64,000 nucleotides of DNA from Algoriphagus sp. TR-M9. Its GTDB lineage: Bacteria; Bacteroidota; Bacteroidia; Cytophagales; Cyclobacteriaceae. Location: the NCBI RefSeq assembly GCF_027594545.1, contig NZ_CP115160.1:3109001-3173000 (forward strand). Direction: 5' to 3'. Made by a program: the position numbers and the translations under genes. The notes beneath the pieces are model-generated. The model was not told where the DNA came from and made no database searches. It was given only the letters and a program-made list of their open reading frames with translations. Below are positions 12,206 through 26,551 of the stretch, piece after piece (position 1 is the first letter of the stretch; each line of letters opens with the position of its first letter).

Positions 12206-13342
12206 ATGACTGCTAAAAAAGGAAAGCTTTTCTTAACTATCATCTATGAGATCAAACTCAAAGTCAATCAAGTGATCTTATGGATTTCGATCAAACTTGG
12301 CTTAGTCAGCTCCATCATGATCGTCCCCTATCAGGGATTTGGTAATCAAAAAGAACTCTACCTGGCAGGGCGGGTAATTCGGAACAATAGAATTAACAAA
12401 TCCACTCCTAAGGATAGCATTTGGCAAAACATAGATAAAATGTTCCGCAGATTCAACACCGTGGTCATTCCCCACGTGCAGGTCAAAGCACTAATTGCAG
12501 GGCAAGAATTTTTCACCAAGACCAATGAAGAAGGGTATTTTGAATTTAAGGTAGCAATTGATACGAGCAAAATCTCAGGTTCCAGATGGCAAAACGTGGA
12601 AATAAACCTGGTGGATCAAATCATCAAAGGACAGGGATCTGTTACAGCCATAGGCAAGGTAGTAATCCCAAAGGGTACGCTGGACTTTGGCGTGATCTCA
12701 GACATAGACGACACCGTGATCCCCACAGGAGCCATGCGGCTTACGGAAATGCTCAAGACCACCTTTGCCAAAAATGCCTACTCCAGAGTGCCTTTTGCTG
12801 GAGTTTCTGCCCTGTACAAAGCGCTGGAAAAAGGAAGGGATGGATTGGAAAGCAACCCTTTCTTTTACGTATCCAGCAGCCCTTGGAATCTCTATGATTT
12901 CCTTACAGAACTACTCGAAGTACACGCTATACCTAAAGGACCGTTGATGCTTCGGGATATAGGCTTATCCAGAACAGAGCTGATCGCCGGTAGTCATGAA
13001 GCTCATAAGCTTGAGCAGATCAGGAAAATTCTGCTTTTTTATCCCCATCTTTCTTTTCTGCTTTTTGGGGATAGTGGTCAGGATGATCCCGAGATTTACC
13101 TGCAAATAGTAAAGGAATTTCCGGGTCGAATCCTAAAAGTTTTCATACGGGATATTCACGCCTCAAGACATGAATTTGTCAAGCAAAAGAGTAAGGAGAT
13201 AGCACAGTACGGGGTAGAAATGCAATTGGTAGAGGACACCATAGCCGCTACTCGGATCGCTATTGAGAATGGCTGGATACTTCCTGATGGTTTGGAAAAT
13301 GTAGCAGTAGAAAAAGCAATAAATGAGAAAGCAATAGAATAA
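12206..13342 (+). CDS. DUF2183/App1-like phosphatase
   Basis: HAD-superfamily protein related to the catalytic domain of yeast App1, a Mg-dependent phosphatidate phosphatase. The nucleophile motif is DIDDT at 166-170 (FGVISDIDDTVIPTG). Motif II is in FYVSSSPWNLYDFL, the lysine region in SHEAHKLEQIRKI, and the acidic motif in LFGDSGQDDPEIY. An N-terminal beta-rich region precedes it, and residues 21-42 are hydrophobic and may contact the membrane. Bacterial substrates are not established. A terminator follows. Confidence 0.85.
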   Translation: MTAKKGKLFLTIIYEIKLKVNQVILWISIKLGLVSSIMIVPYQGFGNQKELYLAGRVIRNNRINKSTPKDSIWQNIDKMFRRFNTVVIPHVQVKALIAGQEFFTKTNEEGYFEFKVAIDTSKISGSRWQNVEINLVDQIIKGQGSVTAIGKVVIPKGTLDFGVISDIDDTVIPTGAMRLTEMLKTTFAKNAYSRVPFAGVSALYKALEKGRDGLESNPFFYVSSSPWNLYDFLTELLEVHAIPKGPLMLRDIGLSRTELIAGSHEAHKLEQIRKILLFYPHLSFLLFGDSGQDDPEIYLQIVKEFPGRILKVFIRDIHASRHEFVKQKSKEIAQYGVEMQLVEDTIAATRIAIENGWILPDGLENVAVEKAINEKAIE

Positions 13343-13355
13343 GGCTAATAGCACA

Positions 13356-13390
13356 AAACAGCCACTTCTCTATTGGAAAGTGGCTGTTTC
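13356..13390 (+). terminator. Terminator-like hairpin after the DUF2183 gene
   Basis: A perfect 12-bp stem, AAACAGCCACTT (13356-13367) with AAGTGGCTGTTT (13378-13389), encloses a 10-nt loop. The T-tract is short, but A-runs on the left make it potentially bidirectional toward metB. Confidence 0.75.
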
Positions 13391-13614
13391 TATGCAATTA
13401 AAATAATATGTAAATCCGCTTTTCTGCCAGTAAGGGTGCAAAAGCTGCATAGGATATGTTAAACTTAAGAATTGAGGCCACTTCAGCCTGTACCGCTCCT
13501 GCAGGTGTCTTCGGCTACTTATACTGAGCGCAGTCGTAGGATCGGTCTTATGGCCGGTTGAGCAGAGAATTATTGGTTACTGGCATCATTCTGAATATCC
13601 ATGTAAAATAATCC

Positions 13615-14760
13615 TCAAATCTTCGAGAGTGCATTGGCCAGGTCATTCTTCAGATCCTCGGCATCTTCCACGCCTACACTCAGCCGGATGAGGGAATCCA
13701 CCAGCCCCACTTTTTCCCGCTCCTCCTTCGGGATACTCGCATGTGTCATGGATGCTGGATGACCGCAGAGAGATTCCACTCCTCCGAGAGATTCTGCCAA
13801 AGCAAAAAGCCGGAAATTTCCCATCACCTTCACCGCATCTGATTCTTGATTCCCCACCAATGTAAAAGAAATCATCCCCCCGTAATCCCGCATCTGCTTT
13901 TTGGCGATGGCATGATTTGGGTGATCCTCAAATCCCGGCCAATAAACCTTTTCTACTTTGGGATGATTTTTCAGATAGGCCGCTATTGTCTTCCCATTTT
14001 GGGAATGGCGCTCCATGCGCAAATGTAAGGTTTTGATCCCTCTCAGTACCAAAAAACAATCCTGAGGCCCCGGAGTCGCACCAGAAGCATTTTGAATGAA
14101 CACTAATTTTTCTGCCAATTCATCATCATTGACCACTAAGGCTCCCATGACTACATCTGAGTGCCCACCTAGATACTTGGTCACGGAGTGCATGACCAGA
14201 TCAGCCCCTAGGTCCAAGGGGTTTTGCAGGTAGGGAGAAGCAAAAGTATTGTCCACAGCTACCATGATCTTCTTGCCCTTGCCCAACTTGGCGACGGCTG
14301 CGATATCGATGATATTCATCATGGGATTGGTGGGCGTCTCCACCCAGATCATCTTGGTTTTCTCGGTGATATGCGCTGCGATACTGGCCGGATCAGCCAT
14401 TGGCACAAACTTAAATTTGATCCCAAATCGCTCATAGATTTTCGTAAAAAGCCGATAAGTCCCTCCGTACAAATCATTGGAACTGATGATCTCATCTCCG
14501 GGGTTGAAAAGTTTCAGTACCGCATCTATGGCCCCTAGACCTGAAGAAAAGCAAATCCCATGTTTCCCATTTTCCAACTCAGCCAGGCTGGACTGCAAGG
14601 CAGTACGGGTAGGATTATGTGTCCTGGAATATTCATACCCCTTATGATCTCCCGGTGACTGCTGCACATAGGTAGAGGTTTGGTAGATCGGGGTCATAAT
14701 GGCTCCTGTGCTAGGATCAGGCTCTATTCCGGCATGTATGGCTTTGGTTCCAAATTTCAT
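13615..14760 (-). CDS. metB: Cystathionine gamma-synthase (Cys/Met metabolism PLP enzyme)
   Basis: PLP-dependent enzyme of transsulfuration, expected to make cystathionine from an activated homoserine ester and cysteine. The fold-type I signature is complete: [11 protein letters not shown], the cofactor region [19 protein letters not shown] and the PLP lysine K195 in [12 protein letters not shown]. The C-terminus has [17 protein letters not shown]. Length (381 aa) is normal. Cystathionine gamma-lyase and O-acetylhomoserine sulfhydrylase share these motifs, so the exact reaction is less certain than the family. It stands alone and divergent from the VTT gene. Confidence 0.88.
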
Positions 14761-14875
14761 TTGATATTGGTTTAGCTTGTTAATGGCTTATTGTGATGAA
14801 AACTTTTTAGATTTTCGGGGTGATTTAAAGGGATGCGTATTAAACTTGCATTCTTAACTGTATGATGAATCAAAT

Positions 14876-15571
14876 ATGACAAAAAAGGGCAGGATATTCA
14901 AAACTATCCGCTCGTACTTTGGTAGGCATCCATCTGGCATCTTCGCTTGGCTTTGGGTGAGCATTATGCCTTTTATCGGCAGTACTATTTTTGCGGTAAA
15001 TTATCAGGTATTAGGGGATGTCCGGATCGAATCGGCGTTGGACTTCCTGGCATACACCCTTATCGGCGCCTTACTGATGGGACTAGCGCTATTGCCCACC
15101 ACTTTGATTGCATTAGCTTCTGGATTTTTCTTTGGCTGGATTTCCCTTCCCTTCTTGATTTTGGGATATTCACTGGCTTCTGTATTAGGCTACGGATTGG
15201 GAAAAATCACCAATATGGGACTGACCGAAAAACTATTCAGGAAAAACCCCAAGTTCAAGGCCGCACTAGAGTCCAGAAAAGAAAAAGAAGGTTCCTTGGT
15301 GTTTTTTGTACGAATATCTCCTGTGGTGCCTTTTGCAGTTTCCAACTTTCTCTTTGCCAATCTGAATATCAAACTTTGGAAAGTGCTGGTCTATGGAATT
15401 CCCGGCATGCTAACCCGCACGGTGATTGCTTTTGCGGCAGGAGTAGCAGCGAGCAGTTACATCGCCGCTAAGCAGTCCATGAACAGCCCCTTGCAGTGGG
15501 GAATCGGACTCGCCTTATTGGTAATAGGTCTGGGAGGGATTTATAGCTATGTAAAAAAATCGAGGAAGTGA
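14876..15571 (+). CDS. TVP38/TMEM64-family (VTT domain) membrane protein
   Basis: Polytopic inner-membrane protein with about five to six helices. The VTT/SNARE-associated core is visible: LPTTLIALASGFFFG, then RISPVVPFAVSNFLFANLNI with its proline-containing re-entrant segment, then YGIPGMLTRTVIAFAAG. Relatives of the DedA/VTT superfamily act as lipid scramblases or transporters; no substrate can be assigned. Its stop codon lies 21 bp before the outermost attC-like site of the neighbouring cassette array, so it marks the chromosomal edge of that array. Confidence 0.85.
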   Translation: MTKKGRIFKTIRSYFGRHPSGIFAWLWVSIMPFIGSTIFAVNYQVLGDVRIESALDFLAYTLIGALLMGLALLPTTLIALASGFFFGWISLPFLILGYSLASVLGYGLGKITNMGLTEKLFRKNPKFKAALESRKEKEGSLVFFVRISPVVPFAVSNFLFANLNIKLWKVLVYGIPGMLTRTVIAFAAGVAASSYIAAKQSMNSPLQWGIGLALLVIGLGGIYSYVKKSRK

Positions 15572-15592
15572 ACTAAGTCACCACTTAGATTG

Positions 15593-15725
15593 GCCTAACG
15601 GTCCGCGGCTAAGAAACGTGGGGCATTCGAAGCGTTTAACAGCAGACCTAAGATAAAAGTAAATACGAGAAATATACTTGCATTTTAGAATATCTGCCCC
15701 ATGTTTTCTTAGGTGCTGTTAGGGC
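15593..15725 (-). repeat. attC-like site A (distal end of array)
   Basis: Read on the minus strand: R'' GCCCTAAC (15725-15718), six bases after the last cassette gene's stop; L'' at 15712-15695; L' at 15625-15609; R' GTTAGGC (15599-15593). The L arms pair over 17-18 bases with one extra base on one side, like the extrahelical base of attC sites. R'' is exactly complementary to the 5' end of its own cassette (GTTAGGGC at site C). Confidence 0.7.
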
Positions 15726-15731
15726 ATGTTT

Positions 15732-16280
15732 TCATTTTCTGTACACGATTTCAAAACAACCATAGCAATCTTCAGTATTTGAATTCAAAGGAATTAAACT
15801 TTTATCTACTAAAAGCCATTCATTATTAAAATTGCATTGGTTGCAATCAAAACTTTCTATTATAAGTGTATCGTTTTTTAGCAGATAATTCCCTTCATAG
15901 TCTTTAAATCCACCAAGTCCTGACCTTCTTACTAGGTATTTGTCGTTTTCAAAAATTTTTATATTCCAAGATGACCTCTCTTCATTTAAATGAGCTTCAA
16001 GAATTACCCCTTGTTCCATTTTTTCGGGAAGAAATGGAATGGTTAAGAAACCCAGTAAAAGGAATGAGTTGTAGTAATTGAGAGGTTTTGGAATTTTTTT
16101 AAAGTTCAAGAAAAGATTTCCAATGATAACCATCAGAATTATAGGGTAGGTAATAATCCATAGGATTCCAAAATTTTTAAATCCGCTTTCGGAGCCAAAA
16201 TAGCGGATCACCATATAAGTAAGTATTATTGAAAATACTATTCTGAAAATTATATAAATATGGTTTGGTGTTAATTTCAT
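15732..16280 (-). CDS. Membrane protein of unknown function (cassette gene)
   Basis: The 182-residue protein has three predicted N-terminal membrane helices (about 8-25, 36-57, 70-82). A C-terminal extracytoplasmic beta-rich domain follows, containing two close cysteine pairs, FDCNQCNF and EDCYGC. No family was recognised. The coding DNA is AT-rich relative to metB and porU. It shares a cassette with the 114-aa gene upstream, since no attC-like site separates them, and its stop lies 6 bp before site A. Confidence 0.7.
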   Translation of the reverse strand: MKLTPNHIYIIFRIVFSIILTYMVIRYFGSESGFKNFGILWIITYPIILMVIIGNLFLNFKKIPKPLNYYNSFLLLGFLTIPFLPEKMEQGVILEAHLNEERSSWNIKIFENDKYLVRRSGLGGFKDYEGNYLLKNDTLIIESFDCNQCNFNNEWLLVDKSLIPLNSNTEDCYGCFEIVYRK

Positions 16281-16368
16281 AATTTTTCCTGATAAATTAG
16301 GTAAAAGTAGTTGTAAATACCTTGTGCCTAATTTAGAGGGGTTTAGTTTGTGAATTTCTTTAAATTTT

Positions 16369-16713
16369 TCATTTTTTTAAGATACCCAGTCCTGCGACCA
16401 AACTTGGAATACAAAGGGGGATTGAACAATATAAAATAATTTTATTATCCAGTGTCAAGTAAATCGATATTGTTATTATTAGGATTCCTAAAATGGGCAA
16501 TAGCAAATATTTTGGAGGCGTTCGTTTTTTTAAAACAAGAACTCCAATTAGAACTACATGTCCAATTAAAAGTCCATTTGCTATTAATCCAGTTGCCAAC
16601 AATCCTGTTCTGATACTGTACGAAAAACTCACGATTGCTAAAAATATAATTAACCAAAGAACCCATGTATTCTTAAATAGAAATTCTTTAGTTTGTGTGA
16701 GTGTCGTATTCAT
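16369..16713 (-). CDS. Small four-helix membrane protein of unknown function (cassette gene)
   Basis: 114 residues, almost entirely hydrophobic, with four predicted helices (about 17-35, 37-59, 68-87, 91-110) and a basic KKRTPPKY loop between the second and third. No family was recognised. It is the first gene of the two-gene cassette that begins at the GTTAGGGC end of site C. The 88-bp gap to the next gene has only an 11-bp inverted repeat (16293-16303 and 16325-16335), not an attC plan. Confidence 0.65.
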   Translation of the reverse strand: MNTTLTQTKEFLFKNTWVLWLIIFLAIVSFSYSIRTGLLATGLIANGLLIGHVVLIGVLVLKKRTPPKYLLLPILGILIITISIYLTLDNKIILYCSIPLCIPSLVAGLGILKK

Positions 16714-16748
16714 TTCCTATATGCTTGTAGGTCTGTTTCTTTAAATGT

Positions 16749-16882
16749 GCCCTAACGATTTGGCTAGCGGTCAGGCCGGCCATGTTTGCGTTTTCTATTC
16801 GTGTTTCATTGTTAGAACTTAGAGCAAAAAGCAACCAAATTTCTTTTCAACTTAGGCTTGGCGCTAGCTTTTGTTGTGGGGC
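16749..16882 (-). repeat. attC-like site C, overlapping a gene's 3' end
   Basis: Minus-strand order: R''-like GCCCCACAAC (16882-16873), L'' GCTAGCG (16868-16862), L' CGCTAGC (16769-16763) and R' GTTAGGGC (16756-16749). The upstream gene's last codons and TAG stop lie within R'' and L''. R'' fits its own cassette end (GTTGGGC) only with an insertion, making this the least regular of the internal sites. Confidence 0.6.
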
Positions 16883-17343
16883 GTTTTCACACATTCAAAT
16901 ATATATTCATTACTAGGGGTCATACTGTAAATTATCAAATCCCCCTTTTTCCATTTTTCTTGATGTTGATCCATTTGCCAAACCTTGGTCCCATCTACTA
17001 GAGTAATTTTTCTGTTAAAAACATTTATTGATTCAATTTCAGAATGCCCAATTAGCTTAGTTTGATTAGATAAATCGTTTTTCATTTTCTTTATAGGCTT
17101 GTACGCAAAAAACCAAGCTATTAAAGAAATTAATATCATCAGTAGTCCAAGTCCAGCACATGGAATAATTATCTGACTAAACTTTAATCCTTTGTTGAAA
17201 ATAAGAATTGTAGCTGAAAGTATGACCCCTCCGATAACCATGAGCGTTACTTCTTTCAGTTTCTTTGTTCGATAATCCTCAGCATGACTAATTTCTTGTT
17301 GAAGAATAGATATTTCTTCGTCTGTTAATTGAACTTCCTTCAT
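16864..17343 (-). CDS. Two-helix membrane protein of unknown function (cassette gene)
   Basis: 159 residues. A polar N-terminal helix is followed by two membrane segments (about 29-47 and 52-73). A soluble C-terminal domain contains NRKITLVDGTKVW and a WKKGDLIIY strand pattern, perhaps a small beta-barrel. No family was recognised. The C-terminal codons run into the attC-like site, a layout known from integron cassettes in which the reading frame ends inside attC. Confidence 0.65.
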   Translation of the reverse strand: MKEVQLTDEEISILQQEISHAEDYRTKKLKEVTLMVIGGVILSATILIFNKGLKFSQIIIPCAGLGLLMILISLIAWFFAYKPIKKMKNDLSNQTKLIGHSEIESINVFNRKITLVDGTKVWQMDQHQEKWKKGDLIIYSMTPSNEYIFECVKTPHNKS

Positions 17344-17382
17344 TTAACTTTCTTTTCCGCTCTTACAATTTTAAATCCTAAT

Positions 17383-17453
17383 GCCCAACAACGGCCCGGC
17401 TAAAAAGCGTTGCTGTCCCGAAGGGCAGCTATGATTTTTTAGCCATTGTTGGC
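17383..17453 (-). repeat. attC-like site D
   Basis: Compact 71-bp site. Minus-strand order: R'' GCCAAC (17453-17448), L'' GGCTAAAAA (17444-17436), an inner hairpin GGGCAGC/GCTGTCCC around 17412-17429, L' TTTTTAGCC (17406-17398) and R' GTTGGGC (17389-17383), which fits GTTRRRY exactly. R'' with its flank is complementary over 10 bases to its own cassette start (GTTGGCGGTA at site E) but mismatches the neighbour's GTTGGGC. Confidence 0.72.
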
Positions 17454-17467
17454 GGTATGTGCTTTTT

Positions 17468-18349
17468 TTAATTTGTCCAATTTTCAATTTTACCGTTGTC
17501 TTCAACCCAGATTTCGATATAGATGTCTTCAGATATTGGCTTTCCCTTATCCAAGATGATGTCGAATTTCAAATCTTTTAAAGCTGTCGTCATTTTGTCA
17601 ATACAAAAGTTTAATTCGTCTGGGTCGTAATATTCATCAATCTGTTCGTCAGATAGGGCCATTCTGACCTTTGAAACAACTCCTTTTTCATCAATTGTCA
17701 CAAAATATGTTTCAGAACAGTCGAATTCATCGGGGTTTTTCCATTTAGCCTTTTTCAGCTTCTTAAATAGCAAGTCGGATATTTTACTCTTATCACGTCT
17801 ATCGATTCTTTTCGGGTCGTCAACATAATTGTCAAAATCTTCTTCGTTTTTAACAAGTCCATTTTTAATAGTTAAAACTTTTTCTCTTTCAAATATTGTG
17901 TAGAAAACTCCGTCCCACCTTATGACTTCATCGTTCAATGGAAAATTTATGTATCCATCAAACCAGTCAATAAAAACTTTTCCATTTTTCAACTTTTCTC
18001 CAAAAATGGATTTCATTTTTTCATGGGATTGACTTTTATCTATTTTTCCATTTCTTAATTCGCCACAATTGATTATGTCAATCAAGAACAAACGGTTATT
18101 CTCAATCTGGTAGATTGCCTGATAACCCCGCCAGCAATTAAAAGATGCTCCGTCTCGAAACGTGAGTCCAAAAAGTTTTTCTGTTTCTGCTGAGTCTTGT
18201 CGTTGCAAATATTGCTCAAGAATTAGATTATAAGTGGCTATCGTGTCCTTTCCATAAATCACATAGTCGGGCATTTGTGGACTCGCAAAAACTCCTGTCG
18301 TCCACATGGTCAGAAGGCAAATTATAATATGTTTGATTGTCTCTTTCAT
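17468..18349 (-). CDS. Secreted protein of unknown function (cassette gene)
   Basis: 293 residues with a signal peptide (hydrophobic core about 8-20, likely cleavage after VFAS). The mature protein is polar and rich in D, E and K. It has aromatic stretches such as FNCWRGYQAIYQIE and KVFIDWFDGYINF, and a C-terminal segment FVTIDEKGVVSKVRM resembling a small TonB-like or energy-transducer-like strand pattern; that resemblance is weak. No family assigned. The start codon lies 15 bp after the cassette junction. Confidence 0.7.
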   Translation of the reverse strand: MKETIKHIIICLLTMWTTGVFASPQMPDYVIYGKDTIATYNLILEQYLQRQDSAETEKLFGLTFRDGASFNCWRGYQAIYQIENNRLFLIDIINCGELRNGKIDKSQSHEKMKSIFGEKLKNGKVFIDWFDGYINFPLNDEVIRWDGVFYTIFEREKVLTIKNGLVKNEEDFDNYVDDPKRIDRRDKSKISDLLFKKLKKAKWKNPDEFDCSETYFVTIDEKGVVSKVRMALSDEQIDEYYDPDELNFCIDKMTTALKDLKFDIILDKGKPISEDIYIEIWVEDNGKIENWTN

Positions 18350-18358
18350 TGCATTACC

Positions 18359-18489
18359 GCCAACGGTCTCGTATAACCGTCAGTTACGGGTTAATATGCG
18401 TTAATTTTCGGTTTATAACAGATCTTAGCAATTCCGAGAGGATTCGGACGTAGTCGAATCCTCCGTAATTGCGGTTATACATTGTTGGC
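18359..18489 (-). repeat. attC-like site E (best-formed)
   Basis: Minus-strand order: R'' GCCAAC (18489-18484); long L'' arm 18480-18463; a 9-bp hairpin in the variable middle (18438-18446 with 18455-18463); L' arm 18389-18371; R' GTTGGC (18364-18359). The L arms pair over 18 bases with one unpaired base and one mismatch. R'' plus flank (GTTGCCAAC) is the exact complement of its own cassette's 5' end (GTTGGCAAC at site F). Confidence 0.78.
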
Positions 18490-18501
18490 AACTGGCTTTT
18501 T

Positions 18502-19311
18502 TTATTTAGTTCCATTTAAAAATCTTGTGTCGTTCATATTATATTCGTTATCAAAAGTTCCGATTTTTTTTAAATAATAATATCTTAATCTTTCCGAACA
18601 AGATTTATAATTGTCATATCCTGTCACAGAATATTTCAGCATTGTTATTGGTTTTAAGTCGTTTTTGTCAAACCTAAATCCTTTTCCAAAATATTCAATT
18701 TCGCCTTTTGGATAATCTTGATATTCATTAAAGACTTTGCTTATTAATAATCCTGCTACAATTTCATTTCCGTTTTCCGAGTAAAATAATGTGTCAATAA
18801 TCGATTCTTTATACTCAACTTTTTCAGGTAAATCAATTGCCCAGTCTCTTTCGATTGTGTCGTTATAAGTTTTACCGTTAAAATATCTCAAAGCTAATTC
18901 TGCTGGTCTTTCAACTGTTTTAACTTTTAGTAAACTGTCAACTAATTTTTGAATTTTTATTTTATCAAGTTCATAAGTTTTCTGGTCGACTTTTAAATTA
19001 TAAACAAATTCTTTTGGCGTTGTTGTTTCTGTTATTTTAAGAGAATACTCTTTTGTCAAATGAGTCATTGACATAACAGCAAGTGGACAACTTAAAACCA
19101 GAAGAAACCAAACACTTATTTTTCGAATGTGCTTTTTGAATGATAGAAAAATAAAAAGGATGGTTGACAGAAATAGAATTATTGAAGTAATAGTTAAAGT
19201 ATCTATTATGTTGCCTAAAGCAGAACCACCTTGGTCATTTAGAATATGAAATATTGAAACTAATATTCCAATCATTAAAATTCCATATAAAATCTTGATT
19301 CCGTGTTTCAT
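18502..19311 (-). CDS. Membrane-anchored protein of unknown function (cassette gene)
   Basis: 269 residues. Three N-terminal membrane helices (about 7-23, 34-55, 66-84) precede a long extracytoplasmic domain rich in lysine and tyrosine. It includes RDWAIDLPEKVEYKESI and a C-terminal CSERLRYYYLKKIG segment. No family was recognised. The DNA is strikingly AT-rich. The start lies 19 bp inside the cassette and the stop 13 bp before site E, leaving no room for other genes. Confidence 0.68.
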   Translation of the reverse strand: MKHGIKILYGILMIGILVSIFHILNDQGGSALGNIIDTLTITSIILFLSTILFIFLSFKKHIRKISVWFLLVLSCPLAVMSMTHLTKEYSLKITETTTPKEFVYNLKVDQKTYELDKIKIQKLVDSLLKVKTVERPAELALRYFNGKTYNDTIERDWAIDLPEKVEYKESIIDTLFYSENGNEIVAGLLISKVFNEYQDYPKGEIEYFGKGFRFDKNDLKPITMLKYSVTGYDNYKSCSERLRYYYLKKIGTFDNEYNMNDTRFLNGTK

Positions 19312-19324
19312 TTTTCAGCTTGTT

Positions 19325-19457
19325 GCCAACGGTCTAGTATATGAAAAGTAGGCGATTTCGAAGCACGAAACTTTCAGTTAAGCACAAAGTTTGATACGAG
19401 CCTAAGCCATTGAATTTACTACTACTTCGCCTATTTTTTATATATATTGTTACCTGC
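19325..19457 (-). repeat. attC-like site F
   Basis: Minus-strand order: R'' GCAGGTAAC (19457-19449), L'' arm TATATAAAAAATAGGCGA with partner TCGCCTACTTTTCATATA nearer 19350, then GACC and R' GTTGGC (19330-19325). R'' does not match the adjacent GTTGGC. It is the exact 9-base complement of GTTACCTGC at the 5' end of its own cassette (20282-20274). Confidence 0.72.
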
Positions 19458-19478
19458 TGGCTTTATTTTTAGTCGATT

Positions 19479-20252
19479 TTATGGTTTCAAAAACTCTGTA
19501 TTTCCATTTAGTTCTTCTTTTGTCCAAGTCAAATGGTTTTTAAGTTCATTGCCGCCAAATTGCTTTATTGTTATTGACTTCAATTCCGTAAATCTGAAAT
19601 TCTTTGAAATTCTTGTGTTTTGAAGAAAATACCTTCCTTGATAAAATTCTCCAAATTCTTTTATTTGGTCTTCAAGCTCTTCTGATTCTGCCTTGACGAC
19701 AAATGTTCTTGAGTCAGCAAATCCTGGTTTGCAGTTCAAAATAATTTCTCCGTTGTCCGATATTTCTGCATCAATAAATATGTTGTCGTAATAGTTTTGA
19801 TTTTGTCTGTCAATAATTGCAAAAATGAAATTGCCAATAGAAAAAGCTGTTGCACCAATTTGGAAAATCCTTTTCTGTCCTAGGCTTTGTGTCAAATAGG
19901 TTATTGTAAGCGGAATAAGTGTCAAAAATGCAAGATATGGCAATAGTAAAACTGCTAATAAAACTGAATTTTTGAAATTAAATACCAAAAAATATCCTAC
20001 TTCACTTGTCAGCATAATTGAGTATGTCAAAGCCGTTAAAAGTGTCAGAATGTAACCAAGTCGGATATTAGCTATAACTAATATTGTCGATAGAATGAAA
20101 GTCGGATAAAGTAACAAAATTGGTATTGTATTGTCTCCAATTCCATAGGCGAATGTTGTAACAGTAAATGAGAAAGAACTCAGAATTCCAACTATACTTG
20201 TTAGTATGATTGCAAGTTTAATTTTCTTTCTTGCTTTTGTCGTTTCTTTCAT
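19479..20252 (-). CDS. Polytopic membrane protein of unknown function (cassette gene)
   Basis: 257 residues. The first about 150 residues contain five hydrophobic helices, and the remainder is a soluble C-terminal domain (IDAEISDNGEIILNCKPGF onward) with alternating beta-strand patterns. No family was recognised. The gene opens the array next to porU, 148 bp beyond the porU stop and in the same orientation. It may therefore be transcribed from the porV promoter by readthrough (inference). Confidence 0.68.
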   Translation of the reverse strand: MKETTKARKKIKLAIILTSIVGILSSFSFTVTTFAYGIGDNTIPILLLYPTFILSTILVIANIRLGYILTLLTALTYSIMLTSEVGYFLVFNFKNSVLLAVLLLPYLAFLTLIPLTITYLTQSLGQKRIFQIGATAFSIGNFIFAIIDRQNQNYYDNIFIDAEISDNGEIILNCKPGFADSRTFVVKAESEELEDQIKEFGEFYQGRYFLQNTRISKNFRFTELKSITIKQFGGNELKNHLTWTKEELNGNTEFLKP

Positions 20253-20273
20253 TCTGTGTCGTTCTTTTAGCTT

Positions 20274-20395
20274 GCAGGTAACTTATTTATTTACGCCACT
20301 TTATGGCGTTTATTCCTATGATTCGGGCAGATAAACGCCACAAATAGCAATATTCTATGGCGTTTATTTTCATCTCATCCATAACTCTGACCTGC
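20274..20395 (-). repeat. Boundary site G between porU and the cassette array
   Basis: The cassette-proximal end is GTTACCTGC (minus, 20282-20274) and the porU-proximal end is GCAGGT (20395-20390), 4 bp after the porU stop. The two ends are complementary over six bases. The interior holds four alternating copies of a TAAACGCCA/TGGCGTTTA word (20290-20298, 20304-20312, 20332-20340, 20358-20366). These form two hairpins rather than one attC-like cruciform. It may be a decayed attC or the original insertion site. Confidence 0.45.
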
Positions 20396-20399
20396 CTTA

Positions 20400-23300
20400 T
20401 CACCTCAGTAAATACATTTTCCCATACCCCTTCTTAAATGCCTTGTCACCTGTAGTAGGCCTATGCTCCATAAACTGCCCGTTTTGGCGAACCAACACCC
20501 GGTAGATATAAACGCCATTGGCGAGTTGGTCCCCAAATTCATCCTTTCCGTCCCAAGCATACTCGGTCAGGTTGTTACCGATTCGGATCGGTCCCAGCTC
20601 AGTCTGCAAAATCTCCCGGACTACCTTGCCCGTTACCGTCATAATCTGAATTTTGATTTCATCAGGCACTTCCATTCCCGTCACTGTAAAGACAAATCGC
20701 ACACTGGTACTGAAAGGATTCGGATAAGGGTAGAAATTCGTGATCTGGGATTCGTTGATCACTTCAAATGTAATTTCATAAGGCTCCGTAGAGTCTTCAT
20801 TGGCTATTCTTAAGGTATAAACCCCATCTTCCAATGGACCCGGAATCATAGAAACTTTAAAGTCCTCGTCCTCCGATGCAGGTGTCCAGGTGAGGTTTGG
20901 ATCGGAAAAATTGATCCGTCTGAAGTCACAGGATTCACAGTTTTGCTTGAGGTATAAATCCAAGCCTACTGTGTCCTTTTTATAAAGCAGTGTCTGGTCA
21001 TTTTTTAGCAATGCGGTGATCATCACATTGGGTGAAACTATATCTCCATCCATAATATATATCCCATCGAAATTTACATCCAGCAGGGCCGTAGACTGAT
21101 CTCCCTCCACGAGGAAGTAAGACTCCAAGTCCACCTGGTTGTTCCTAAAAGTCTGCTCCCGTTGTATCCTAGGATTGGCAAAAATCTCCAGGCTATTCTC
21201 GCCCACTTTTCCCACAGAACCAAACTCAATCGTAAAATCAAAAGCCTCACCGGCCTTTAGGGCAGGAAATTTTTCAGAAAACTGCTCTACCTTATTGCTA
21301 CTTTCGTTAGTCAAAGTCCAGTCTACCTGAATGGAGTCCAGGAAGTTGTACTTAGAAATATTCTTGAATTGCAGTTCCAAAATACCAGATTCACCCTCAC
21401 GCAGGTTCACCTGAACTTGGGCTGATTTGAGCATCAAAACACCCTCTGGCACGCCGGTATAGTTCACCTGCCACTTGTCCAGCTGAGCCGGAGCCGTGGA
21501 CTCAGGATCATCCATGCTGTACCTCAGTTTTAAGTACGGGTATACCGCTGTGCTGATAAAGGAAAGATCCATTTCCCGATCAAATGAATTTCCTATCAGC
21601 AAATCCTCTTCACCATTTTCTTTCACCCCTATAATGTCAAAATAGGTTTTCTCCTCCTCATTGATCCAGTTTCTTGAATTTACATTTTGGAAAAAACGCT
21701 CCCAACTAGACGCTGGCCCCACCCTAGGCGTCAGGATCATTCCGGAAGTGAGGTAACCATTCATTTCGGTATCAAAGGATAGTGTTTGCTGTGAGGCCGG
21801 TACTTCCATAGTTTTATCGCCCAGGATTTCTATAGCCTCCCCGGGTCGCATGCCTTTTCTACCATACAATATGTAAGGGTCACCTGTCTTCAGCGCCCTG
21901 AGGGTTGCTTCGCTGGCGCCAAACTCCTTTAGCTTTTCGTAAGCTATATCCGGCCAATCCTCAAAAGTCACATTGCCTACAGAAAAAATAACCACATAAT
22001 CCCCCTCAGGCACATTATTCACATATTCCTGTAACATGGTTTGCCCTGGTGTGGTAATCCAAGAATTACGAATGCTCTGGATCATCTGAGGCACTCTCCC
22101 GCAGGCTCTGGAGTCCAAAATATCAAAACCCGGTACGGGAATCGCCAGGTAAGGCATCAAACTTTTTTGCTCAAAAGCCACCAAACCCAGGGAACCATTG
22201 GGGCAAAGCCTACTATTGGCATTGTTTACATTATCGATGATCTGAGGAATCTGATTGAGGTAAAACTGTGTATTTCGGAAAGAAAGGCTATCCACTCCAG
22301 CTCCCACTGTAAATACCTCCACCTGCGACTGAATATCTTCATACTTCCAGGTTCTGTCCGACTCCTTTATTTCCAAATTCCTCAGTTGATCATCATCTAG
22401 CTGATAAGTGGTTCGCTGGGTCCACCCTTCAGGCCCATCCGGGATGTAGGAAAAGGATGATTGAGTCCAGGCCTCGGACTCTCCAGGCTTGGCGTCCTGA
22501 TACTTTGACCTCCAATAAAAGGTGGTGCTGTCCGAAAATGCCGTTAAAGAAAAGGGCATTTCCGCCAAACCGCGCGTAGTTACTCTCACCTCTTTTCTGT
22601 AGGCTGAGTTAAATCCTGCGGCACTGTCCAACTGGATGATTACAGTCCGGTCTTCGGATACCTTACCTGGCACCTGCGCGATCAAATTGATATTTTCCTC
22701 ACTGACTATCCCATAGTCCAGGGGATATAGATTTAAGGTACCACTCAGGGGAACAAACTTCGAATAGGTTACTGAGTTGTTGGCAAAAGTCATCTCCTGC
22801 ACCTCCATGCTTGGATTCAAGGTTACAGTGAAGGTGTTTTCCCCAGCTGAATTCCTGCCCGTATTCGGTATAGTAAAAAACAGAGAATCTATCCTCGCTA
22901 CAAATGGGATTTTCACCGGATCAAATGTTTCTGTGGTGCCATCCGGCAATTTTCTACTCACTTGGTATTCAATAGAATCTGTATCTACCCTACCTATATT
23001 TCTAATGACAAAACTCAGTTTCAAACTATCAGAAAGCACTGAAACAGGCACCTCGTCAAAGCTATCCACTGCCACTTCCTCCACTTTTATAGCATAATCT
23101 GCTTTGTCCGCAGGAAATATCCTCAAGCCCGGATCACCGTAATTGATCATCTGCTCCATGTGCGAATAGGACAGTGGGCTTGTGCCATAATTTTCCACAT
23201 AAGCCTGCTCCGCCTCACGCTTCACCTCGCCAAGTGTTCTGTAGATCAAGGTACTATCGCCGAATGCTTTTCTATAAAACATATCCGAATACCTGCGCAG

Positions 23301-25421
23301 ATAGACATCCACTCCAATTGCCGAATTAGCCATCACAGATACTGCTCCTTTTTCGGGAGTAATCACCCAGTCTTCACCTTGGGTGTAGCTATTGCCGTAG
23401 GCGCTGCCATAGTCACAGCCATTAAATAACATGACCGGATACTTGCCCTTGTTTTGATAGTTCAAAGTAGGATCAGAGGCAAAACCTATCTCTATATCAA
23501 TCACCGTAGGAGATCCGTGCCCAAAAAACGTAAGCATAGACCGGCCTTCATTCAAATCCCCAGTGATATCAATCACCTCTACGGTGGAATTGGAACGCTT
23601 TCTATAGGTTGTTACATTCCCTCCCAAAAAGGGGCTTTCGGCAATGGTTTTGAAGCCATTCATAAAGTTGAAATACCTTTCCAATTCAAACTCCGAAACT
23701 CCCCCACTCAGATGCACCAGTTCCTTTTGCCAGGAATCCGAAATCCCCACCGCATCCTTTTCTATGGCCTTATTGAGGTAATCCGATAGTTGTTGCGAAT
23801 TCCGGGCAGGGATACGCCCCACGGCCATAGCGGGCACCAATGGCTTCTCCGAATCCAAACCTATCACAAATACATTGTCCGAAAATGGAAAACCACCTGC
23901 CGGCACCATCTCCTGAAAACTAAAAGCCTCAGGGTTATTTCTGTAAAAATAGTTGACCCCACCCTGCCTGGCGGTAGAGTAAGTGGCCAAAGCCCTTCCT
24001 GCAAGAAGTAAATGCGTTGGCTTGTGAATAGGATAGTAAGCCCGGAGAAATTCATATATGGCTACAGGAGACTTTTCCCCATAGGCAAATTGATTATAAA
24101 TGTCCTCCATTCTTACAGTCAAGGTATCAAAGCCTCCACCAGCAGGAGAAGCCCTATGCTCGGCATAGGCCTTTAGAGGATTCTCAAATTGCTCGCTGGC
24201 CTGCTCCAAAGCCCGGTTTCCTACCAAGATGTAATTCGCCGCCTGTCCCAGGTAATCCCTGAACCGTACAGCTTCTAAGTTTTCTACCCTATGGATTGAC
24301 TCCTCACTTTGCAGCCACACTTTGCTGCTGTCTGATGCCATAGCCCCACGAAAAGAAAGTACTTGCCCATCGGTAGCAAAGCTCACTTTTTCTACATTTC
24401 CCAAATCAGAAATCTCATATCCTACATAAGAAGAAGTAGCTTGGTTGAGCTGAATGCGTTGATTTCCGGGAGGGGAAAGCATCAGTTTCGATTCAAATTC
24501 CCCTGTGGGTAAGTTGGATTGATAGAGCAGTTTCAAATAAGCTATGGATACATTGTCCACAGATTCAGATCCAGCAGACTGCACGCCGATCACTATACTT
24601 CCATCAGCATTAAAATCGCTCATGGACAGGTCCAAAATCAGATGCGGGTACTCGTAGTTTGAAAACGAAGCTGTAGAAATCAACCGCTGGTTTCCTGCCG
24701 TAGGTCCGGCTAATATGCGGGTACTATGTGGATGAAATGACCTGCCGACCAGGCCAATTTCCAGTTTTGCGCCTCCAGAATTCGTCACTTCTCCCAGACC
24801 ATCCAGCGTCACCTGCCGTGTATTCCCCTTACTGATCACGGCACTCATCCATCCTTGTCCTTGATCATATTTGGACAGGCGGAAGTCTAGGGCATACCCT
24901 ATTCCTAAGGAGTATTGCTCCCCAAATACCTGAAGCTTTTCTGTGTAAAAAGTATTGATTACAGGCTGATTGGCCTCGGGAGCAGCTCTGGACGCCATGC
25001 GTTTTCCTAATCGTGAAGAATTTACCGTCAGGAAAAAAGCCGTGGTATCAGAAGTGGTATTATAGTAGGGGTTTGGCAACTCCTCGAAGTCCGTATAAAG
25101 TAAACGGTCCAAGGTGCCATCATTTCTCAGGCCATAAAACTCAATGTAATCTTCCCCATCTAAGGTACCATCGCTTTCTCCGGATATGTAAACCGCCACT
25201 TCCTTACCCCTATGGTAGAGGCTGATATTCCTCGGGTCAAGTGTGGAAAGATTCACTCCAGAACCTGCCAGCGCTTCCGCTGTCACCCGGTACACCCCGT
25301 CTTTGGCAGTGGGAATTTTGTAGTAAGTCTGCTCATAATTATACCAAGCTGCCTGCTGGGCATTGGTCAAGCCGGTAAAAACCAGAATTGTCAGCAACAC
25401 ATAAAGTAGATTTCGCATCAT
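20400..25421 (-). CDS. porU: Type IX secretion C25 sortase, PorU-like long form
   Basis: Exported cysteine peptidase of about 1673 residues, longer than classical PorU (about 1150-1300); it may be the form called PorU2. After a signal peptide comes a PorU-type N-terminal region (DPRNISLYHRGKEVAVY). The C25/gingipain catalytic domain follows, with the histidine in FFGHGSP (H635 in this numbering) and the cysteine in LFNGCDYG (C669). Several CARDB-like beta-sandwiches and a C-terminal sorting-like domain (FYPYPNPF and WDGKDEFGDQLANGVYIY) complete it. In T9SS the sortase removes C-terminal signals and attaches cargo to the outer membrane. I chose ATG at 25421, which overlaps the porV stop as TGATG. 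Confidence 0.82.
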   Translation of the reverse strand: MMRNLLYVLLTILVFTGLTNAQQAAWYNYEQTYYKIPTAKDGVYRVTAEALAGSGVNLSTLDPRNISLYHRGKEVAVYISGESDGTLDGEDYIEFYGLRNDGTLDRLLYTDFEELPNPYYNTTSDTTAFFLTVNSSRLGKRMASRAAPEANQPVINTFYTEKLQVFGEQYSLGIGYALDFRLSKYDQGQGWMSAVISKGNTRQVTLDGLGEVTNSGGAKLEIGLVGRSFHPHSTRILAGPTAGNQRLISTASFSNYEYPHLILDLSMSDFNADGSIVIGVQSAGSESVDNVSIAYLKLLYQSNLPTGEFESKLMLSPPGNQRIQLNQATSSYVGYEISDLGNVEKVSFATDGQVLSFRGAMASDSSKVWLQSEESIHRVENLEAVRFRDYLGQAANYILVGNRALEQASEQFENPLKAYAEHRASPAGGGFDTLTVRMEDIYNQFAYGEKSPVAIYEFLRAYYPIHKPTHLLLAGRALATYSTARQGGVNYFYRNNPEAFSFQEMVPAGGFPFSDNVFVIGLDSEKPLVPAMAVGRIPARNSQQLSDYLNKAIEKDAVGISDSWQKELVHLSGGVSEFELERYFNFMNGFKTIAESPFLGGNVTTYRKRSNSTVEVIDITGDLNEGRSMLTFFGHGSPTVIDIEIGFASDPTLNYQNKGKYPVMLFNGCDYGSAYGNSYTQGEDWVITPEKGAVSVMANSAIGVDVYLRRYSDMFYRKAFGDSTLIYRTLGEVKREAEQAYVENYGTSPLSYSHMEQMINYGDPGLRIFPADKADYAIKVEEVAVDSFDEVPVSVLSDSLKLSFVIRNIGRVDTDSIEYQVSRKLPDGTTETFDPVKIPFVARIDSLFFTIPNTGRNSAGENTFTVTLNPSMEVQEMTFANNSVTYSKFVPLSGTLNLYPLDYGIVSEENINLIAQVPGKVSEDRTVIIQLDSAAGFNSAYRKEVRVTTRGLAEMPFSLTAFSDSTTFYWRSKYQDAKPGESEAWTQSSFSYIPDGPEGWTQRTTYQLDDDQLRNLEIKESDRTWKYEDIQSQVEVFTVGAGVDSLSFRNTQFYLNQIPQIIDNVNNANSRLCPNGSLGLVAFEQKSLMPYLAIPVPGFDILDSRACGRVPQMIQSIRNSWITTPGQTMLQEYVNNVPEGDYVVIFSVGNVTFEDWPDIAYEKLKEFGASEATLRALKTGDPYILYGRKGMRPGEAIEILGDKTMEVPASQQTLSFDTEMNGYLTSGMILTPRVGPASSWERFFQNVNSRNWINEEEKTYFDIIGVKENGEEDLLIGNSFDREMDLSFISTAVYPYLKLRYSMDDPESTAPAQLDKWQVNYTGVPEGVLMLKSAQVQVNLREGESGILELQFKNISKYNFLDSIQVDWTLTNESSNKVEQFSEKFPALKAGEAFDFTIEFGSVGKVGENSLEIFANPRIQREQTFRNNQVDLESYFLVEGDQSTALLDVNFDGIYIMDGDIVSPNVMITALLKNDQTLLYKKDTVGLDLYLKQNCESCDFRRINFSDPNLTWTPASEDEDFKVSMIPGPLEDGVYTLRIANEDSTEPYEITFEVINESQITNFYPYPNPFSTSVRFVFTVTGMEVPDEIKIQIMTVTGKVVREILQTELGPIRIGNNLTEYAWDGKDEFGDQLANGVYIYRVLVRQNGQFMEHRPTTGDKAFKKGYGKMYLLR

Positions 25422-26551
25422 CAGTATTCCCAACTTTTAAATTTCCGAAACTCATCGTCTAGCTTTTCCAAACTCACTTTCACGCTGAACACATGGGAGT
25501 AAGGAGTTTCTGACACATTTCCTATATCCGAGAGCGCATAATCAATATGGAACTTCTGGCTCAGCAGCACCCCTACCCCCATGCTAGGCTGCATATTCAA
25601 ACTCCTTTCGCCTTGAAAATCCTTGATGTATTGAAAATTGCTAATCCCTGCACGGATAAAAGCCACATTTTGAAAGCCTGCTTCCAAGCCAAATTTGGGA
25701 TCAATGCTCATCAGTGAACTGCTGATCAGGGTATTTCTCTCCCCGTCAAAGGTCATATCCAAATCCAAAGCTGTCAACAAGGAAAACTGCTCCCCAAACT
25801 GAAATGCGTAAGAAATACTGGAAATAGCCCTTGGCAAGGTCAGTTCAACAGAATTTACAGGAATCTCATTGTCAGTCTGTGCATAGATTTCGCGCACCAG
25901 GTCTGCATTGTGTGACCAGGCATTAAAGGTCGTGGTAATGTCCCGGACCATCAGCCCAAGCGTCAGCCTATCCTTGATGTAAATCCCACCCACGTCCAGT
26001 CCGAACCCCCATGCCTGCGCAAATTTCCCCACATTTCTATGAATCACTTTGGCGTTAAGTCCTACTTTGAAATGGTCTGACAAGTCTCTGGCATAGCTCA
26101 GCAAAAGCGCGTAATCTGCCGCATTGAAAAACTGGATATTGTTATAATTCAAGGCTCCATTAGCATCGTAGAGAAAACGGGTATCCGGAATATCATCCAC
26201 TCCAAAACGGATCAGAGAAACAGCTACTTGACTTTGGCCTTTGATCGGCATGGAAAAGCTGAGGTAGTCGTACTGCGCTACTCCTGCAAAATACTCCGAA
26301 TGCATCAAGCTAAATTCATATTTATGCCCTATACCCATCAAAGCTGCTGGATTCCAATAGGCCGCTGTCACGTCACGCACAGCGGAGACTTGCGCGCCTC
26401 CCATTCCCAAAGCTCTGGCGCCTACCCCTATGTTCAGAAATTCATTGGAATACTTAGGAGTAAGATCCTGCGAAAAAACATAAGTATTACCTGAAGCCAG
26501 GAAAACCAGAAGAATGAAATAAAAAGTGTTTGTCGCTCTGTTTGAATTCAC
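25421..26551 (-). CDS. porV: PorV/PorQ-family outer-membrane protein
   Basis: 376-residue FadL-like beta-barrel with an N-terminal signal peptide ending near VFSQ. The PorV/PorQ signature GVGARALGMGGAQVSAVRD and TAAYWNPAALMG follows the signal sequence, and amphipathic strands run to the C-terminus. In T9SS, PorV is the shuttle that accepts cargo from the translocon and presents it to PorU. Its stop codon overlaps the start of the sortase gene, so the two are translationally coupled. Order here is porV then porU. PorQ cannot be excluded from sequence alone. Confidence 0.82.
   Translation of the reverse strand: MNSNRATNTFYFILLVFLASGNTYVFSQDLTPKYSNEFLNIGVGARALGMGGAQVSAVRDVTAAYWNPAALMGIGHKYEFSLMHSEYFAGVAQYDYLSFSMPIKGQSQVAVSLIRFGVDDIPDTRFLYDANGALNYNNIQFFNAADYALLLSYARDLSDHFKVGLNAKVIHRNVGKFAQAWGFGLDVGGIYIKDRLTLGLMVRDITTTFNAWSHNADLVREIYAQTDNEIPVNSVELTLPRAISSISYAFQFGEQFSLLTALDLDMTFDGERNTLISSSLMSIDPKFGLEAGFQNVAFIRAGISNFQYIKDFQGERSLNMQPSMGVGVLLSQKFHIDYALSDIGNVSETPYSHVFSVKVSLEKLDDEFRKFKSWEY

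Follow-up and report, generated by a model that had tools for sequence, protein, structure and literature searches.

The 64,000-base stretch of Algoriphagus sp. TR-M9 analysed here (the window; the host family is presumably Cyclobacteriaceae) carries at positions 15590-20370, on the minus strand, a copy of an attI site followed by five cassettes with attC-like sites. With a probability that we put at roughly 0.88, this is a cassette array that an attI heads, part of a Bacteroidota integron-like system worked by a XerA-like recombinase with an extra N-terminal domain that acts in trans from a gene some 175 kb away. What the comparison of sequences establishes is the order integrase-attI-cassettes in many genomes, the exchange of DNA between genomes with cassette precision, and an attC stem that is conserved despite variation of its sequence; that the XerA-like enzyme carries out the cassette reaction, we infer.

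The window array and its probable integrase

The array is bounded by two gene ends, that of a Peptidase_C25 gene on the minus strand (20400-25433), which we take to be porU, and that of a VTT-domain gene on the plus strand (14876-15571). Its parts are listed below in array order; scores are those of R1, a covariance model of this attC family built on 37 sequences that include window sites A, D and E.

20279..20370, minus strand: attI copy (site F of the first-pass annotation), ending AAATAAATAAG^TT, no integrase adjoining; 81% identical over 92 bases to the DNA that immediately follows the integrase gene
19331..20282, minus strand: cassette 1; open reading frame (ORF) 19479-20252, 257 amino acids, no family match; complementary ends GTTACCTGC / GCAGGTAAC
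19321..19458, minus strand: attC E; R1 111.5 bits (in the R1 training set)
18365..19330, minus strand: cassette 2; ORF 18502-19311, 269 amino acids, no family match; complementary ends GTTGGCAAC / GTTGCCAAC; also a cassette in genome G168
18355..18493, minus strand: attC D; R1 61.1 bits (in the training set)
17390..18364, minus strand: cassette 3; ORF 17468-18349, 293 amino acids, no family match; complementary ends GTTGGCGGTA / TACCGCCAAC
17382..17457, minus strand: attC C, of a short type; R1 28.4 bits (outside the training set)
16757..17389, minus strand: cassette 4; ORF 16864-17343, 159 amino acids, no family match; ends GTTGGGCA / GTTCTAAC mismatch
16748..16818, minus strand: site B, a degenerate attC; poor fold, no R1 match
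15600..16756, minus strand: cassette 5; ORFs 16369-16713 (114 amino acids) and 15732-16280 (182 amino acids), no family match; complementary ends GTTAGGGCA / TGCCCTAAC
15590..15727, minus strand: attC A, the array end; R1 83.9 bits (in the training set), spacing 118

The first-pass annotation, made from the letters of the window, had described six AT-rich minus-strand genes of unknown function in five units, and in this it was right: the ORF check places the six genes where it had put them, searches of Pfam, NCBIfam and PADLOC with their products give nothing at E up to 0.001, and the GC content of the array stretch is 32.6%, against 42.9% in the rest of the window and below that of each of 100 overlapping comparison windows. 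An Rfam scan of the window has a tRNA as its sole match. Four of the five cassettes have complementary ends of 9-10 bp (GTT.../...AAC), and a chain of three complementary-end units arose in 6 of 2000 Markov shuffles of the array stretch, the position of attI being disregarded. The same annotation had seen folded sites on the attC plan throughout. Sites C, D and E do fold in that way and A does so on one strand; B folds poorly, and F is the attI copy, which has been aligned with nine other attI regions. The AAC-to-GTT spacing of 118-119 bases in D, E and A is the common value of the family; the short site C has inner arms that resemble, by eye, those of a site in the array beside the integrase. 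Cassette 4, lying between C and B, is labelled hybrid or decayed.

Of tyrosine recombinases the window has none: the genome's seven PF00589 matches all lie outside it. One of the outlying genes encodes the integrase, a XerA-like protein of 368 amino acids (G000:C1:2951563-2952666, G000 being this genome). The stretch directly after its stop codon also ends AAATAAATAAG^TT, and the only other match to that stretch in the genome is site F; the distance from the one attI to the other is 177 kb. Behind the integrase's attI stands a second array, its cassettes running GTTATAGGCA...TGCCTATAAC and onward, four of them in one script-found chain and two more recognized by eye. Cassettes two and three of this second array code for an AAA protein and an AbiU-like protein respectively, both of kinds that occur in phage defence. 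The idea that the window array is simply integrase-less was dropped at this point: integrase, attI and a second array lie in the same genome, 172-177 kb away, and the description is true of the locality alone.

R1 has 11 matches in this genome, six in the two arrays and five standing alone. (A note on the lone matches: at about 1.176 Mb (L131:891-1629 of G000:C1) there is a single cassette whose attC is complete but is not followed by GTT (AAAACG|AAGAG); it seems to have entered a secondary site that is no att site. Its empty site has no match in 14 other Algoriphagus genomes, so the insertion point is read from this genome's own sequence. The other four lone matches look decayed by eye, and a group II intron match (L135:1102-1400) lies beside a lone decayed attC. 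Two further group II intron matches, L083:6136-7935 and 12966-14765, lie downstream of an integrase elsewhere. Group II introns are known from attC sites, and these matches recall them.)

Integrase, attI and cassettes across genomes

The same order of integrase, attI and cassettes recurs in relatives from Algoriphagus and from other genera of the family, the integrase being transcribed in the direction of its cassettes. A chain of cassettes, counted when it starts 30-220 bases after the integrase stop, was sought at 43 integrase loci (seven of 40 fetched loci, L063, L075, L080, L082, L084, L089 and L091, have little downstream DNA and are left out of the count). Chains of at least two are present in 20, as expected of an attI beside the integrase that takes up the first cassette; chains of at least three in 12, the longest having 17 cassettes; a single first cassette in 11; and none in 12. 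Markov shuffles gave a chain of at least two in 7 of 860 and of at least three in 0 of 860, and 400 overlapping starts in unrelated window DNA gave none of at least two. In a sample of the phylum a first cassette stands at the expected place in 18 of 28 loci, as against 17 of 560 shuffles (the 28 are the sample's best matches, with this genome and L025 excluded; two come from the same family and three have less than 150 bases downstream). Judged from these counts, the first-cassette signature extends to other Bacteroidota families. Among 75 cassette ORFs from 14 array-bearing loci, 69 point the same way as their array, and the median share of a cassette covered by ORF is 0.91; the products of some cassettes (AbiU-like and AAA proteins, methyltransferases) are of defence-like kinds.

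Ahead of GTT, attI has the core ATAARNAA in 36 loci, where position -1 is invariant (36 of 36) and positions -8, -7 and -6 hold in 35. The 36 are drawn from 49 loci, L057 and twelve loci of a more distant integrase group (about 40-47% identity) being left out; the twelve have other attI sequences. By eye, the attI regions of L050-L057 and L060-L079 contain inverted repeats whose sequence differs strongly among relatives while the pairing is kept.

Matches to R1 (at most 55 candidates per genome being scored) are present in 53 of 59 sampled family genomes, one genome per genus, and run to dozens in some. One of these, G049, has at least 50 attC matches, many of them held within about 73 kb (G049:C3:305114-378173), and an integrase fragment of 167 residues lies about 26 kb past the outermost listed site; the label "large array with a decayed enzyme" seems to fit it. 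The integrase itself is not so easily counted: short homologs of about 280 amino acids, matching residues 98-368, were at first tallied with it, and the tallies that include them (79/118, 82/394 and 26/30) are upper bounds for the integron integrase for that reason. One kind of short homolog is the recombinase that partners an IS91-type transposase within one element, the transposase being so named by analogy with annotated plasmid copies. In several genomes this element, of about 2.4 kb and starting GTTGAACTAAACC or similar (L065, L083, L062, L073), occupies precisely the GTT of an attI or attC, and elements of this kind may have such sites as their targets. An integrase copy with 57% identity over 78% of the length is found on a Chryseobacterium oryzae plasmid (L141:13821-14864), with no cassette chain detectable at it.

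Do cassettes actually move? The integrase of A. locisalis is 99% identical to that of TR-M9, and the two genomes are homologous through integrase and attI to AAATAAATAAGTT, after which they have different first cassettes (two of ten loci, L058 and L059, were left out of this comparison set). G040 and G082 share, at 99.9% identity, a cassette of 1055 bases that carries a nucleotidyltransferase-like gene, and the version in A. kandeliae (L051) is 97.6% identical to that of G040. In one array this cassette stands fourth; in the two others it comes first, each time after another type of attI. One of the integrases ahead of it is only 41% identical to that of TR-M9, and the identity of the cassette copies begins and ends at (C)GTT. 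(Copies of this cassette are found in L051, L146, L067 and L088; L146, from G161, is identical to L051 over 1800 bases and is probably the same genome. The L051 copy encodes a predicted nucleotidyltransferase with a LinB-like C-terminal domain, of a family that includes drug-modifying enzymes.) The window array takes part as well: its cassette 2 is the second cassette behind an integrase of the 41% type in G168, with 81% identity over 551 columns and an onset of homology exactly at CGTTGGCAAC (CGTT). At the porU locus, G137 has attI in common with the window and diverges at ATAAATAAGTTA, and G159 has an attI-like end and R1 matches. In 17 of 30 loci of the genus (TR-M9 being among the 30) porU is followed by a match to the VTT gene within 130 bases, with no array between; ten others, besides TR-M9, G137 and G159, show no attI motif and have no VTT match inside 1.5 kb. 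Cassette-precise junctions, which the first-pass annotation had proposed to look for in related strains, exist both for a window cassette and, in another species, at the window array's own locus; the comparison that might have counted against its reading speaks for it. Read from such junctions, cassettes are gained and lost exactly at G^TT.

These junctions also bear on the plainest of the alternatives, namely that the window holds ordinary genes between dispersed palindromic repeats and that there is no cassette system. The degenerate state of site B and the five lone R1 matches elsewhere in the genome are what dispersed repeats might look like. Each pair of complementary ends, however, encloses one gene unit, such units are seldom chained in the controls, and the breakpoints between genomes fall exactly on those ends, which contradicts this account; its probability is next to negligible.

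The attC site and its probable recombinase

The attC family was characterized on 61 sites of attC length; removal of two chance links left 59 sites from 20 arrays, of which 37 were aligned (A1). All 59 read AACA and CGTTR. The finder requires AAC and GTT by design; it makes no such demand for the A that follows AAC, the C ahead of GTT, the purine behind it, or the stem and its mismatch. This is where the string GACCGTTRGGC, which the first-pass annotation had noticed ahead of the crossover in A, E and F with a variant in D, finds its place: GACCGTT stands in A, in E and also in D and is absent from F, and as a general mark of the sites it must be given up as a local variant, the 59 sites having AACA, CGTT and a purine after GTT in common.

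RNAalifold on the 37 aligned sites gives a stem of 17 pairs, with changes on both sides at 16 of the 17 and 87.3% of cells paired. The double-change cells number 184, against a shuffle mean of 65 and 28-64 in slid controls, a count that is inflated by related sites; the number of pairs with double changes and the numbers of pair types are not clearly above those of shuffles. An A.C mismatch within the stem is kept in 31 of 37 sites and its neighbouring pairs covary, so that the A.C behaves as an extrahelical base would. These, then, are imperfect inverted repeats with AAC and GTT ends, with structure conserved over sequence and with unpaired bases in the stem. The R-box consensus of IntI integrons is RYYYAAC and GTTRRRY; 4 of the 59 sites fit each and 55 lie outside, and fully complementary 7-base arms occur in 6 of 59. 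R1 does not match the class 1 sites of a control plasmid.

The enzyme, too, departs from IntI. Its nearest model is NF040815 (XerA), which it barely passes (220.7 against a cut-off of 220). With the integron integrase model TIGR02249 it is the best protein of its genome at 201.8 bits, the cut-off being 265, and no protein of the genome passes. The insert that holds the I2 helix of IntI is a gap in the ten family members shown beside IntI1, a second annotated integron integrase and an Acinetobacter frame that resembles IntI; XerA likewise lacks the IntI insert, and 2A3V aligns only on both sides of it. Residues R225, H315, R318, H341 and Y350, which we take to be catalytic, are invariant in 44 aligned sequences. 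A quick tree of 49 sequences, with long branches, sets the array group (SH-aLRT 95) apart from IntI (99) and places a Rhizobium recombinase without the insert with IntI (88); the deeper order is not settled, and an origin of the array group independent of IntI is consequently not demonstrated.

At its other end the family has about 95 extra residues, which AlphaFold models as a domain with five strands plus two helices; the pLDDT is 88 when the domain is predicted by itself. The HARP domain of fork-remodelling enzymes is, in the part of PMC4666394 that describes it, a five-stranded sheet packed against two helices. PF07443 (HARP) scores at best 15.4 with five N-terminal pieces, below its cut-off of 25, and at E up to 0.1 it matches 9 of 44 family members. 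A Foldseek search with the domain ranks 4o66 (HARP; E 0.08, probability 0.84) second, after an eIF1-like protein, and VIA-align puts eIF1-like and XPB N-terminal folds at the top of its list. Taken together, the matches of sequence and of modelled structure suggest, and do no more than suggest, a weakly HARP-like domain.

The possibility that all of this is a remnant of a canonical integron, that is, a CALIN with cassettes of ordinary IntI integrons and a XerA-like enzyme as bystander, is best weighed here. A site plan of AAC, stem with an unpaired base, and GTT is the attC plan, after all, and the XerA-like enzyme is related to IntI. Against this, the genome has no match that passes the IntI model, the enzyme lies directly ahead of attI and cassettes in many genera, few of the sites fit GTTRRRY, and R1 misses the class 1 sites; we regard a remnant as very improbable. 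The system is not an IntI integron, because the defining integrase domain was tested for and is absent.

The following scheme for the system draws on the pattern of sequences and on general knowledge of integrons. The XerA-like enzyme would bind duplex attI together with the folded strand of a cassette's attC; one strand would be exchanged at G^TT, and a circular cassette would thus be inserted beside attI (AAG^TT) in a single orientation. At attC sites the same enzyme would cut cassettes out. Since the cut falls inside the R box, each cassette would keep its own complementary ends and each site within an array would combine parts of two adjoining cassettes. Beside porU, the attI copy would let a second array grow, with the integrase supplied in trans. 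Reading of attC as a folded single strand is suggested by the fact that little beyond AACA/CGTTR, the stem and the A.C mismatch is conserved, and the N-terminal domain may take over the role that the I2 helix has in IntI.

Must the strand be single? A recombinase acting on double-stranded or cruciform attC would still make the system integron-like, though no single-strand system. It would suit an enzyme that lacks the I2 helix, the element to which a passage of PMC7790495 assigns the reading of extrahelical bases in the folded strand. A stem whose sequence varies with compensating changes, and a conserved mismatch within it, are needless if the sequence of a duplex is read; a cruciform would need them. 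This alternative is unlikely, though a good deal less so than a remnant of IntI integrons. The most far-reaching version of the scheme is that a second integron lineage extends across Bacteroidota, recombining single strands without I2, reading folded attC with a HARP-like N-terminal domain, and descended from XerA-like enzymes independently of IntI or before I2 was gained. That is tentative, with a chance that falls somewhat short of even.

Known integrons and what the array may mean

The likeness to IntI integrons, class 1 as well as chromosomal, is considerable. In both, a tyrosine recombinase adjoins attI, cassettes stand in tandem and mostly hold one gene each, attC combines AAC/GTT ends and a stem with an unpaired region and a variable loop, and GTT is the point of exchange. 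The differences are as distinct. The Bacteroidota enzyme has no I2 insert and does have an extra N-terminal domain; in most IntI integrons the integrase is divergent from the cassettes, and here it is co-directional; the R boxes of 55 of 59 sites are of another kind. Complementary cassette ends are mostly 9-10 bp long, compared with 8 bp in the class 1 control, where the complementary-end script at a threshold of 7 found both cassettes (slice 195-689 and 763-1344, 8 bp each) and one chance pair of 7 bp. The XerA recombinases (NF040815; PDB 5hxy, 4a8e) lack the roughly 95 additional N-terminal residues and the setting of attI and cassettes. A CALIN (cluster of attC sites lacking an integron integrase) is defined in a passage of PMC9668308 as two or more attC sites less than 4 kb apart without intI; the window has four sites by R1, three of them in its training set, and like a CALIN it has no adjoining integrase. 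Unlike one, it is headed by an attI copy, with a matching enzyme about 175 kb away. The first-pass annotation's proposal of an integron-like array with a distinct attC subtype and an unknown integrase holds up as far as sequence can tell: the system appears to work like an integron, and is best filed as a Bacteroidota integron-like system with a XerA-like, I2-less integrase.

Bacteroidota are named among the phyla with integrons in passages of two reviews (PMC8618304, PMC9668308), and the relevant part of a large IntI-based survey speaks, for Bacteroidetes, at first only of In0 elements and then of one complete integron, in Salinibacter ruber (PMC9024848). An IntI-based search would probably miss a XerA-like system. 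A literature search, with preprints outside its coverage, found no description of this one, and it appears that a widely spread gene-capture system in Bacteroidota has gone unnoticed.

The absence of I2 gives the matter its wider bearing. A passage of PMC8138268 has the I2 insert not fully conserved in that paper's integron-like subgroup, yet essential for integron function; PMC7790495 credits I2 with the recognition of extrahelical bases and with the step to single-strand recombination, in a passage that starts to note that causality has yet to be proved directly. If cassettes recombine without I2, the need for I2 becomes testable, and if folded single strands are indeed recombined without it, the system would provide a direct test of the view that I2 made single-strand recombination possible. 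Integrons of other bacteria spread resistance genes; the genes of this array appear to be comparably swappable cassettes, moved by a cutting enzyme that lacks a part regarded as essential for that reaction.

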